A stretch of 64,000 nt of DNA from Streptomyces xiaopingdaonensis (GTDB taxonomy: Bacteria > Actinomycetota > Actinomycetes > Streptomycetales > Streptomycetaceae), in assembly GCF_000262345.1 (NCBI RefSeq), contig NZ_AJTQ01000125.1:1-64000 (forward strand), written 5' to 3'. The number at the start of each line of letters is the position of its first letter. Positions within the stretch are counted from its first letter, which is position 1. Shown here in pieces: positions 4,985-7,661 of the stretch. The position numbers and the translations under genes were made by a program. A model generated the notes under the pieces. It ran no database searches. It saw only the letters and a list, made by a program, of their open reading frames with translations, and was not told where the DNA came from.

Positions 4985-6169
4985 TTACGGCGCCCGCACG
5001 GGTACCAAGTCGTCCGGACTGTCCAGCCACACGCGTTGGCCGTGCGGCGTGACCGTCAGGCCGTACCGTTCGAACCGTGGCTCGCCCTTCTCTCGCCACC
5101 AGGACATGACGGCCTCGGCCTCGGTCCACAGATGACGCGGCCCGTATTCGGCGACCTCGAACTCGGTACGCCCGGGTTCGTAGTCGACCGTAGCCCACGA
5201 CGTGCAGCCCATGTCGAGCAGCCACAGCCGATACGCGCCGGCCTTGCCCCACTCGACGCGACAGAACATGTCCGGCACCTGCACGCCGAGCGTGAACATG
5301 TGGTGCCAGGCGCCCATGTCGTCCGGCGAGAGGGCCGTCGTGCGCCGCGACGCGGTGCTCGGCCAGTTCGAGGCGTCCGGAAACGTGTCCGTCGGCGGGA
5401 ACGTGTCGCGCTGATCGCGCAGACGCATGAACGCGGAGGACATCACGAACCGGCCCATGGCGACGCCGCCCTCGCCGACCCTCAGCCGCGCGACTCCCTG
5501 CCCGCCGTAGGGCGGGCCCCAGGGGGCGACGACGACGGCCCCTTCCGCGGCCTGCTCGATCCAGTCGTACGGCACGGTGGAGATCCCGCACGTGGCGACG
5601 ACGCGGTCGTACGGGGCGCCGTCCGGGTAGCCGTGTGCGCCGTCGCCGACGACGGACAACGGGTTGAGGTCGACCGCGGCGAGGCGGCGCCGGGCTTCCT
5701 CGGCGACGGACGGATCAACCTCGACCGTCACGACGTTGTCCGGTCCGAGCCGGTGCGACAGCAGAGCCGCATTCCAGCCCGTGCCGGTCCCGATTTCCAA
5801 CACCCGGTTTCCGCGCTCGACGCTCAGGGCGCCGAGCATGGAAAACACCATCTTGGGCATGGAGTTGGACGAGGTCGGGGCCCGGCCCTTGTCCGTGCCC
5901 GTGTGCGCGCCGTCGTCCCATTGCGTCGTGAGCGGAACGTCGCTGTAGACCTTCTCCCACCACCGCGCCGGGTCCGTGTTCCGGTCGATCACCTCGCCCT
6001 GACGGTTGCCGCCCGCCGTCCCCGGCCACAGCCGGTCGGGCACGAACGCGTCACGCGGCACCGCCTTGAATGCGGGAACCCAATCCGACGTGAGTGCACC
6101 CTTTTCCAGCAGCACGGAGGCCAGCCCTCCCGGGCCGGCCTCCTTCGTGCTGGGAGTTTCAGCGGTCAC
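4985..6169 (-). CDS. Protein-L-isoaspartate O-methyltransferase homologue with C-terminal extension (putative imiditide-type RiPP maturase)
   Basis: The protein has 394 aa, almost twice the length of housekeeping PIMT. The N-terminal half is a SAM methyltransferase: substrate-loop motif SNSMPKM (101-107), SAM motif I VLEIGTGTGWNA (123-134) and motif II-like GDGAHGYPDGAPYD (175-188). Residues from about 230 to 394 form an extension not found in repair PIMTs but typical of PIMT homologues in RiPP clusters, which methylate Asp in a precursor so that it collapses to aspartimide. GTG 6169 follows directly on the TAA of the upstream 46-codon gene, so the two are coupled. No lanthionine synthetase or ATP-grasp ligase is nearby, which favours an imiditide-like role over a tailoring role. 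The enzyme class is firm; the RiPP role is inferred. Confidence 0.85.
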   Translation of the reverse strand: MTAETPSTKEAGPGGLASVLLEKGALTSDWVPAFKAVPRDAFVPDRLWPGTAGGNRQGEVIDRNTDPARWWEKVYSDVPLTTQWDDGAHTGTDKGRAPTSSNSMPKMVFSMLGALSVERGNRVLEIGTGTGWNAALLSHRLGPDNVVTVEVDPSVAEEARRRLAAVDLNPLSVVGDGAHGYPDGAPYDRVVATCGISTVPYDWIEQAAEGAVVVAPWGPPYGGQGVARLRVGEGGVAMGRFVMSSAFMRLRDQRDTFPPTDTFPDASNWPSTASRRTTALSPDDMGAWHHMFTLGVQVPDMFCRVEWGKAGAYRLWLLDMGCTSWATVDYEPGRTEFEVAEYGPRHLWTEAEAVMSWWREKGEPRFERYGLTVTPHGQRVWLDSPDDLVPVRAP

Positions 6170-6310
6170 TTACTCGCCGTCCGCCGGACCCTGGCCGTCC
6201 GAGGTGTTGCCGCCCTCGTCGGAGCCGCCGCCCCCGTGCTTGTTGCCGGAGTCGCTGTCATCCTGCGGATTTCCGCCATCGGCCCGCGTCATCCACGGAA
6301 ATGCGTCCAC
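6170..6310 (-). CDS. 46-residue Asp/Gly-rich peptide, putative precursor of the isoaspartate methyltransferase
   Basis: GTG 6310 is preceded by a near-perfect ribosome site (AGGAGG, 7 nt spacing), and the stop TAA abuts the methyltransferase start. The peptide starts MDAFPWMTRADGG and continues as a hydrophilic, probably unfolded chain with 12 Gly and 8 Asp but no Cys. It has three Asp-Gly dipeptides (residues 11-12, 38-39, 44-45), the chemically preferred sites for aspartimide formation, plus a GGGG run at 26-29. Small size, strong translation signal, coupling to a PIMT-like enzyme and Asp-Gly content fit a RiPP precursor. The exact core and any leader cleavage site are not evident. Confidence 0.75.
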   Translation of the reverse strand: MDAFPWMTRADGGNPQDDSDSGNKHGGGGSDEGGNTSDGQGPADGE

Positions 6311-6578
6311 TGGGTACCTCCTGATCGGTGGTGCTCGGGTGGTGGTTCCGAAATCCGCCTCGACCGGGCGATGAACCATCGGGCGCGGTCGAGGCGGAGC
6401 CTACGCGGGCGCTGATGAGCAGGCGCCCGATTCGCAGCGGGACACCGGGCACGCACAGTGCCCGCCGCGAGGGTCGGTGTGGGGTGGGCTGTTGCTCCGG
6501 CACGGGGCAGCCGGTCCGCAGTCGAGCGCGCTCGGCCTCGGCCCGATGGAGCTGTTCAACCCGGAAGATGCACCAGTG

Positions 6579-6719
6579 TCAGGCGCGGAACACGACGGTG
6601 ACGCCGTGCGCCTCCACCGTCCCCGGGCGCGCCACGGGCAGGTTCGTACGCTCGCAGCGATGGCAGGAGTCGCGACGGAAGTCGAACCGTGCCCACAGTG
6701 CCAGCGGCCTTACTCCCAC
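6579..6719 (-). CDS. Small CxxC protein of unknown function
   Basis: The frame encodes 46 aa from GTG 6719, which overlaps the stop of the upstream gene. The composition is basic and aromatic, with a single CHRC pair (DSCHRCER) that could bind metal, and a C-terminal part VARPGTVEAHGVTVVFRA. It looks like the last gene of the sub-operon beginning at 7578. The family is not recognised. Tight overlap on the same strand supports it as a real gene. Confidence 0.55.
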   Translation of the reverse strand: MGVRPLALWARFDFRRDSCHRCERTNLPVARPGTVEAHGVTVVFRA

Positions 6720-7075
6720 GGCGCACCCCCGCGTGCGCCGCAGGGCAAGGGGGCGCCGCCCACCAGGGGCAGGAAGTCGACCGGCCGAGCTGTCCACGCG
6801 AACCGTGCCTCGCCGCACGAGACGGCGAACTCGAACGGCTCGCCGCGGGCGAGGTCGGCCTCGGCCTCGCGCGGGTCCGAGCCGAGCCAGTCGAAGACGT
6901 ACGCCGAGGCCGGGTCTTCGAGGGCTGACGCGATGATGGCGAGGCCGACGCGCGCCCAACGGAGCGCGTTCGATGGCGCAGCGACCGGGCACGCTTGTAT
7001 GCGGCGCGGTGCGGGCGAGCTCGGATCGGACACCCACCACTCACACCAGTACCCGGCGGTGACCTTCCCCAGCAT
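6710..7075 (-). CDS. Conserved-looking hypothetical protein (121 aa)
   Basis: The translation begins MLGKVTAGYWCEWWVSDP and contains a regular mix of helix-forming and aromatic residues (ALRWARVGLAIIASALEDPASAYVFDWLG), with Streptomyces-like codon use. GTG 7093, overlapping the previous stop, is an alternative start. The gene lies between the resolvase-like gene and the CxxC protein on the same strand. No domain is recognised. Confidence 0.6.
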   Translation of the reverse strand: MLGKVTAGYWCEWWVSDPSSPAPRRIQACPVAAPSNALRWARVGLAIIASALEDPASAYVFDWLGSDPREAEADLARGEPFEFAVSCGEARFAWTARPVDFLPLVGGAPLPCGARGGAPWE

Positions 7076-7610: not shown

Positions 7611-7661
7611 ACGGAGCGTAGGAGCGACGGAACCCGTTCCGGGTCAACTCCTACGCTCCGT
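7611..7661. promoter_or_regulatory. Perfect 14-bp inverted repeat between XRE regulator and resolvase-like gene
   Basis: ACGGAGCGTAGGAG (7611-7624) and its exact complement (7648-7661) flank 23 bp that themselves contain the nested repeat GGAAC-CC-GTTCC (7629-7640). The element starts 6 bp after the XRE stop and lies 33 bp before the next start. It could be a terminator/attenuator limiting read-through or a binding site for the XRE protein. Confidence 0.6.

Follow-up and report, generated by a model that had tools for sequence, protein, structure and literature searches.

A putative imiditide unit of Streptomyces linked to XRE-type regulators and carried by phages

The window, a stretch of 64,000 nucleotides from Streptomyces xiaopingdaonensis, holds a stand-alone chromosomal copy of a cassette that consists of genes for an XRE-type regulator, a resolvase-like protein, a precursor peptide and an isoaspartate-methyltransferase homologue, and that recurs in a prophage of Streptomyces, within its repressor/lysis region. 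Judged from its sequence, the peptide–enzyme pair is very probably an imiditide (type I pamtide) unit belonging to a Gly-rich, Pro-poor Streptomyces subfamily. The earlier note on this DNA had the class right when it described an imiditide-like RiPP unit, although the class itself is already in print, with 1414 type I pamtides given in the text of PMC13001092. What is new here is the linkage of the pair to XRE-type regulators and its carriage by phages; the words phage and XRE are absent from the main texts of PMC10787088 and PMC13001092, and neither the upstream regulator nor the phage relatives appeared in the earlier note. As our best guess, to which we give a probability of about 0.35, the product would have a phage-related role inside the cell.

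The features of the cassette are collected in Table 1. The TAA of the peptide gene, which ends at 6170, directly abuts the GTG of the enzyme frame on the minus strand, and the spacing between AGGAGG and the GTG of the peptide is 6 nt (by eye). Both frames were found as previously claimed, a 46-codon gene directly before a PIMT homologue of 394 aa, and the composition count agrees as well: the 46-mer, VDAFPWMTRADGGNPQDDSDSGNKHGGGGSDEGGNTSDGQGPADGE, contains no Cys, 8 Asp and three Asp-Gly pairs, together with 12 Gly and 3 Pro, and has a net charge of about −8. In the enzyme, PF01135 (PCMT) covers residues 70–253 (5.5e-29). The C-terminal extension reported previously is present, but amounts to 141 residues beyond the PCMT match rather than about 165. 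The best NCBIfam model for the enzyme is TIGR04188, which describes the methyltransferase found in ATP-grasp peptide systems and is matched at full length with 321 bits, below its cut-off of 380, and which all 35 enzymes scanned match at 1e-10 or better; enzyme residues 10–390 match the phage family phrog_13505 (3.5e-135). The best solved relatives by sequence are ordinary PIMTs, aligned over the core only. The WXXXGXP motif is given for RiPP-associated enzymes in the text of PMC13001092. A PADLOC search returned only generic methyltransferase-domain and HTH matches (mad2, 2.2e-14 over 94 residues; capH, 2.8e-5), which we did not accept as membership of a defence system, and an AlphaFold model of a peptide–enzyme read-through fusion was set aside (mean pLDDT 42).

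Table 1. Positions of the cassette features within the window
Feature	Position	Strand	Basis or remark
Isoaspartate-methyltransferase homologue (PAMT), 394 aa	4985..6169	-	PF01135, TIGR04188, phrog_13505
C-terminal enzyme extension, residues 254-394	4988..5410	-	Pfam PCMT match stops at residue 253
WXXXGXP motif (WREKGEP), residues 358-364	5078..5098	-	In 33/35 enzymes, the window's included
Precursor peptide gene, 46 aa	6170..6310	-	GTG start, TAA stop; family alignment and profile matches
Asp38-Gly39 codons, candidate methylation/aspartimide site (inferred)	6194..6199	-	Conservation; P-Asp-Gly at the matching place in Pro-rich relatives
Ribosome-binding site AGGAGG	6317..6322	-	By eye; identical or similar in relatives
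Inverted repeat, 13-bp stem	6354..6398	-	43 nt before peptide start; kept in 7 close relatives
Resolvase-N-like small protein, 163 aa	7087..7578	-	Pfam Resolvase 0.069; last 113 residues 0.031; both below curated cut-off
Perfect 14-bp inverted repeat	7611..7661	-	Between regulator and resolvase-like gene
XRE-type regulator, HTH + TPR-like C-terminal domain, 403 aa	7667..8878	-	Start possibly up to 8929

The enzyme was searched over 392 Streptomyces genomes, in which at least 46 places with at least 50% identity were counted by hand, one of them partial (G012). The earlier note had looked to co-conservation of peptide and enzyme, with an invariant Asp-Gly, for support, and the co-conservation was indeed found: a peptide-profile match lies directly upstream of 39 of the 46 homologues listed at this identity, while the peptide is Gly-rich but divergent at five others and Pro-rich, as recovered by script, at one, G012 being outside the count. 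Conversely, the peptide profile finds matches in 38 of the 392 genomes, and the small frame is conserved beyond chance, since 40 of the 42 listed matches adjoin the enzyme; the remaining two lie elsewhere and match only weakly and in part, and next to one of the 40 (G375) the enzyme copy is split over three frames. Across the class, 394 genomes sampled from 137 genera gave 3 matches, all in Streptomyces. An identical 20-residue stretch is encoded in 27 of the 46 peptide DNAs, and 14 of its 20 codons vary synonymously among these 27, the 19 others being left out of the count. At one locus (L224:1780-2985, genome G225), a second PCMT-type enzyme directly adjoins the cassette.

The conservation within the peptide is uneven. 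Asp18 is kept in all of 45 distinct Gly-rich peptides in the alignment and Asp17 in 44, followed by Asp38 (41/45) and Gly39 (40/45); four divergent peptides have no Asp aligned at position 38, and their alignment is uncertain. Of the Asp-Gly pairs, Asp38-Gly39 is conserved, whereas Asp11-Gly12 is not and becomes Glu-Gly or Thr-Gly in some relatives. The surrounding N-terminal stretch, MDAFPWMTRADGG, had been put forward as a new leader type, but it is the most variable part of the peptide, and its loose P/W-W-hydrophobic motif recurs in only part of the family. At the other end, where type I pamtide precursors are expected to keep charged residues for a recognition based on charge, 26 of the 45 peptides terminate in Lys, 13 in Arg, 4 in Glu and one each in Asn and Ser, the last residue of the window peptide being Glu. 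One peptide (L021 and L097, G391:C24) is just 34 aa long, with the middle KHGGGGSDEGGN-type stretch absent and QDDSDSGN and NDGQGPADG kept, and these two retained segments may mark the parts that are needed. The divergent peptides of L129–L132, upstream of enzymes 51–54% identical to the window's, have DSGHSD- or GHSD-type endings in place of Asp-Gly, and the modified Asp may differ in them.

A second kind of peptide, rich in Pro (e.g., ...LPGEPYPGPHQPPTPDGGPGVPNPPK), is found upstream of enzymes 42–48% identical to that of the window, where a script recovered it in 18 of 20 such loci. P-Asp-Gly is nearly invariant in 19 distinct Pro-rich peptides, L134's included (Asp in 18, Gly in 19), and by position Asp38 of the window peptide would correspond to the Asp of this motif. 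Asp38 is on the whole the likelier residue to be modified, although this choice is not forced, since Asp17 and Asp18 are at least equally conserved. In a tree of 36 enzymes whose root is uncertain, the 11 enzymes from Pro-rich loci are united in a single group (support 100/100), and this group is joined to three enzymes from the Gly-rich set (98/93).

The definition of type I pamtides in PMC10787088, as far as its text goes, fits the unit in all but Pro content. It is a two-gene cluster with a PIMT homologue whose extension exceeds 100 aa and which carries WXXXGXP near its C terminus, and one family each for ATP-grasp, LanB and LanC, when searched, had no match on the window's contig, in line with the earlier statement that no lanthipeptide synthetase or ATP-grasp enzyme is nearby; the three families do match elsewhere in the same genome. 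Mean contents of type I pamtides are 17.3% Gly, 16.8% Pro and 10.2% Asp, as against 12, 3 and 8 residues of 46 in the window peptide. The known imiditide systems NmaA-NmaM and SpaA-SpaM are alike in having a gene for a precursor of about 45 aa that is followed at once by one for a PIMT homologue with a C-terminal extension, a conserved Asp beside Gly, the WXXXGXP motif and no further primary enzyme found. The window peptide differs from them in being Gly-rich, Pro-poor and acidic, with a core that is extremely conserved in Streptomyces; the linkage of the pair to XRE regulators and its presence in phages are further differences. Strong positive charges are ascribed to imiditides in section 12 of PMC13001092. 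A match in charge between peptide and enzyme extension was not found among 66 pairs with 61 distinct peptides (rho −0.01). The exact peptide strings were absent from the literature searched and may already stand in supplementary lists of type I pamtides.

Other classes with related enzymes are more distant. Group 13 graspetides (graspimiditides) resemble the unit in that its enzyme aligns across the full TIGR04188 model, but here the score falls below the cut-off and no ATP-grasp match lies on the contig. The same genome encodes a separate graspetide-type unit on contig C213 (L008, L236), with an ATP-grasp ligase and a methyltransferase both above cut-off, and a third TIGR04188-like enzyme at C231:48639-49340 (247.7 bits, 360-aa frame). 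Type II pamtides (cysimiditides) likewise combine a peptide with a PAMT, but have two CXXCXGXG motifs, whereas the window peptide is devoid of Cys. The methyltransferases of FxLD lanthipeptides (TIGR04364) share the PIMT core, but the enzyme reaches only 110 bits against that model's cut-off of 320, and neither LanB nor LanC is matched on the contig.

The pair is closely associated with XRE-type regulators. Of 52 oriented enzyme loci, the 12 with short flanks were omitted, and the analysis used the 40 whose upstream flank spans 3 kb; these 40 include L134 with its Pro-rich peptide and L126 with a split enzyme. An XRE-type protein was detected within 3 kb upstream in 35 of the 40 (helix-turn-helix profile, E 1e-3) and in 12 of 19 Pro-rich loci (20 less one dropped for length), both counts being favoured because the profile was built from the matches of these two sets. 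The same profile found none in 38 control stretches of these genomes that lie about 100 kb from the loci, and none in 45 downstream stretches of enzyme loci. With the window regulator alone as query, the count was 17/40 for the first set and 0/19 and 0/38 for the other two upstream sets. When enzymes were grouped at 70% identity, the 40 loci collapsed into 16 groups, 15 of which contain at least one locus with an XRE protein and 12 of which have it in every locus. The linked regulators vary: 20 of the 40 are strongly TPR-like as that of the window, which matches the phage family phrog_5823 over nearly its full length (1.9e-72), and others are of the DUF5753 type, with DUF6879 added at some loci. 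XRE-DUF5753/DUF397 pairs beside group 11 and group 13 graspetides are described in PMC13097080, so we regard the regulator link as an extension of a known pattern. A precedent for local control exists in S. venezuelae, where the XRE protein WhiJ9 is described as activating the neighbouring iosA (PMC10294661).

A search of the enzyme against 50,697 phage records gave 8 records that represent five phages, all of them Austintatiousvirus on S. venezuelae, with enzymes 53–55% identical to the window's. In all five, a Gly-rich peptide gene, annotated as hypothetical protein, lies directly before the enzyme, and the pair sits between holin/endolysin genes and a divergent HTH regulator, in a cargo slot of SV1-like phages and Austintatiousvirus that is bounded on the other side by repressor and integrase. 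Beyond the HTH regulator, PapayaSalad and Ididsumtinwong carry a serine integrase and Cro. The regulator of PapayaSalad is of the TPR-like type (phrog_5823); in Austintatious and Ididsumtinwong the regulator is a different protein. PMC9239200 calls Alderaan virulent, and the part of its sequence inspected here has no integrase annotated. In phage SV1, whose endolysin is 93% identical, the slot is taken up by gp26, an HTH protein and a protein with a histidine-kinase annotation, and the enzyme was not matched; this content (L268, 8043-10441) is reminiscent of whiJ/abaA-type modules of Streptomyces development. PapayaSalad, Ididsumtinwong and Bioscum have tRNAs annotated ahead of the peptide gene; these were discounted, as ARAGORN calls none in the two of the three that it was run on (L239 and L242).

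Further copies occur in predicted proviruses and on a plasmid. Relatives of the enzyme are encoded at 23 loci of IMG/VR; a script found Gly-rich peptides at five of these, Pro-rich ones at five, other candidates at eight and nothing at the remaining five. Two of the Gly-rich loci apparently are the phage isolates above once more, and predicted proviruses can include host flanks. Closest to the window is the prophage L243, with identities of 89% for the regulator, 71% for the resolvase-like protein, 82% for the peptide and 78% for the enzyme, in the order serine integrase, regulator, resolvase-like protein, peptide, enzyme, and then endolysin and tail genes. Another copy, accompanied by an HTH gene, is on a plasmid of Streptomyces sp. 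NBC_00239. Searches by tblastn with the 46-mer (plasmids) and a 48-mer (phages) gave no match and missed even known copies, for which low-complexity filtering is the likely cause.

In contrast to the Austintatiousvirus slot, the surroundings of the window's cassette include no recognised phage gene; they consist of his/trp genes and genes for a TIGR03085 protein, an MFS transporter and a solute-binding protein, and among relatives with long flanks, L001 alone has these neighbours. An empty site could not be demonstrated: the solute-binding-protein gene occurs in 16 of 121 genomes and the TIGR03085 protein in 119, and where both are on one large contig, the two genes lie hundreds of kilobases apart. 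Homologues of the L243 or PapayaSalad endolysin were found in 4 of 40 downstream stretches. Twenty neighbour proteins, a subset of 39 picked by script and mostly the longer ones, were scanned, and the 16 with a Pfam match included three MazG and one second PCMT enzyme, and no phage structural or integrase family was found among the 20. Most chromosomal copies therefore look stand-alone. Homologues of the resolvase-like protein, which by eye lacks the usual serine motif, are present in 11 of 36 loci compared (29 of them with flanks of at most about 1.5 kb) and in the prophage L243. Further small frames lie at 6710-7075 (−), 121 aa, and at 6579-6719 (−), about 46 aa with CxxC; neither has a Pfam match, and the frame containing 6579-6719 was matched in 7 of the 36 loci.

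As for the chemistry, we infer that an aspartimide forms on the window peptide. With SAM as methyl donor, the 394-aa enzyme would methylate a single Asp in the linear 46-mer, Asp38 within Ser-Asp38-Gly39 being the likeliest; the amide of Gly39 would then displace methanol to give the aspartimide (−18 Da), which would hydrolyse mainly to isoaspartate. The adjacent XRE-type regulator would control expression of the product. As far as we looked, the pair has no exporter or protease gene conserved alongside it, so that the product would probably stay and act within the cell or lysogen that makes it; by eye, no transporter or protease was recognised among upstream gene clusters common to several loci. 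Taken together, we tentatively propose that an aspartimide- or isoaspartate-containing peptide from the repressor region of a phage or cassette hits a conserved host or phage target, with the exchangeable XRE regulator setting the timing; lysogeny, superinfection exclusion or a block of host development are possible target processes. If true, imiditides would gain a biological role, and a RiPP of their class would be encoded by phages. The link to biological function is named as the bigger challenge for aspartimidylated RiPPs in section 12 of a 2026 review (PMC13001092). The function is directly testable, because a putative imiditide pair sits in the repressor/lysis region of isolated phages whose host, S. 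venezuelae, is used in the laboratory, and the regulator linkage offers a second handle.

Several alternative explanations have to be weighed against this proposal. The enzyme, with its PIMT core domain, might be a repair-type isoaspartate methyltransferase and the peptide an unrelated small protein or translational leader, but the strong co-conservation, the identical amino acids over varied codons, the extension with WXXXGXP and the full-length match to a RiPP-associated model make this very improbable. Also improbable is a role as an antibacterial or membrane-active RiPP that is secreted or released, which has been suggested for other imiditides. The pair does belong to a RiPP class, membrane interaction is suggested for positively charged members (PMC13001092, section 12), and export by a neighbour would be possible in the window and L001, since the MFS transporter and the solute-binding protein are near; however, the window peptide is net negative, and the shared upstream gene clusters offered no candidate for export or processing by eye. 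The XRE link, for its part, might merely reflect accessory islands rich in XRE genes, which would fit the 74 HTH_31 matches in the 6.47-Mb genome of the window and the XRE pairs beside graspetides (PMC13097080), and the shifted controls possibly consist mostly of core genes. Yet these 74 matches lead one to expect about 3% per 3 kb, and the opposite side of the loci had none, so that we consider this explanation unlikely.

Alternatively, the modified peptide could be a signal sensed by the TPR-type XRE regulator, in a manner resembling RRNPP or arbitrium systems, and thereby tune lysogeny or host development. The HTH and TPR-like architecture of the regulator, its tight linkage to the pair and the position of the pair in phage repressor regions would be consistent with this, as would the predicted fold (middling confidence, mean pLDDT 63), which matches TPR proteins that include Rap (Z 14.7–16.2) and NprR (Z 14.4). 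However, other TPR proteins reach equal or higher fold scores, and we claim no specific relative of the regulator, because the structure-library matches are TPR folds of many kinds. Several XRE types also stand beside the same kind of peptide, 20 of 40 being strongly TPR-like, and no export signal is evident by eye. Most peptide pheromones vary, whereas the core of this peptide hardly does. A comparison of L004 and L005 points the same way: their peptides are identical and their enzymes 99% identical, whereas the regulators share 58% identity in the middle (sensor) domain as against 93–94% on both sides, and in this one strain pair the sensor thus changed without a joint change of the peptide. 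At the DNA level, the two loci are 92–100% identical across the 7 kb compared beyond the regulator gene, as against 60–77% in the middle of that gene; the sharp drop (L004:7800-8700) marks an exchange of the sensor domain, L005 having that of the window's type. Because the sensor was swapped beside an unchanged peptide, albeit in one strain pair, a simple ligand–receptor pairing is weakened, and we regard such signalling as rather unlikely. Under the preferred intracellular, phage-related role, the regulator would instead set the timing of expression.

Possible signals for such control lie upstream of the peptide gene. Between 4800 and 9200, a scan for sigma-70 promoters and terminators found none, and Rfam gave no match at gathering scores. 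The perfect repeat between the regulator and the resolvase-like gene is a possible operator or terminator, and the hairpin before the peptide may be a terminator, attenuator or operator. All 87 letter cells of the latter stem are paired in the 7 close relatives; changes on both sides affect 2 of its 13 pairs, a count matched by 85 of 500 shuffles, and its covariation score was reached by 1 of 500. Inverted repeats with arms of at least 9 bp were found in 24 of 67 upstream regions, some of them close relatives, as compared with 36 of 1340 mononucleotide shuffles.
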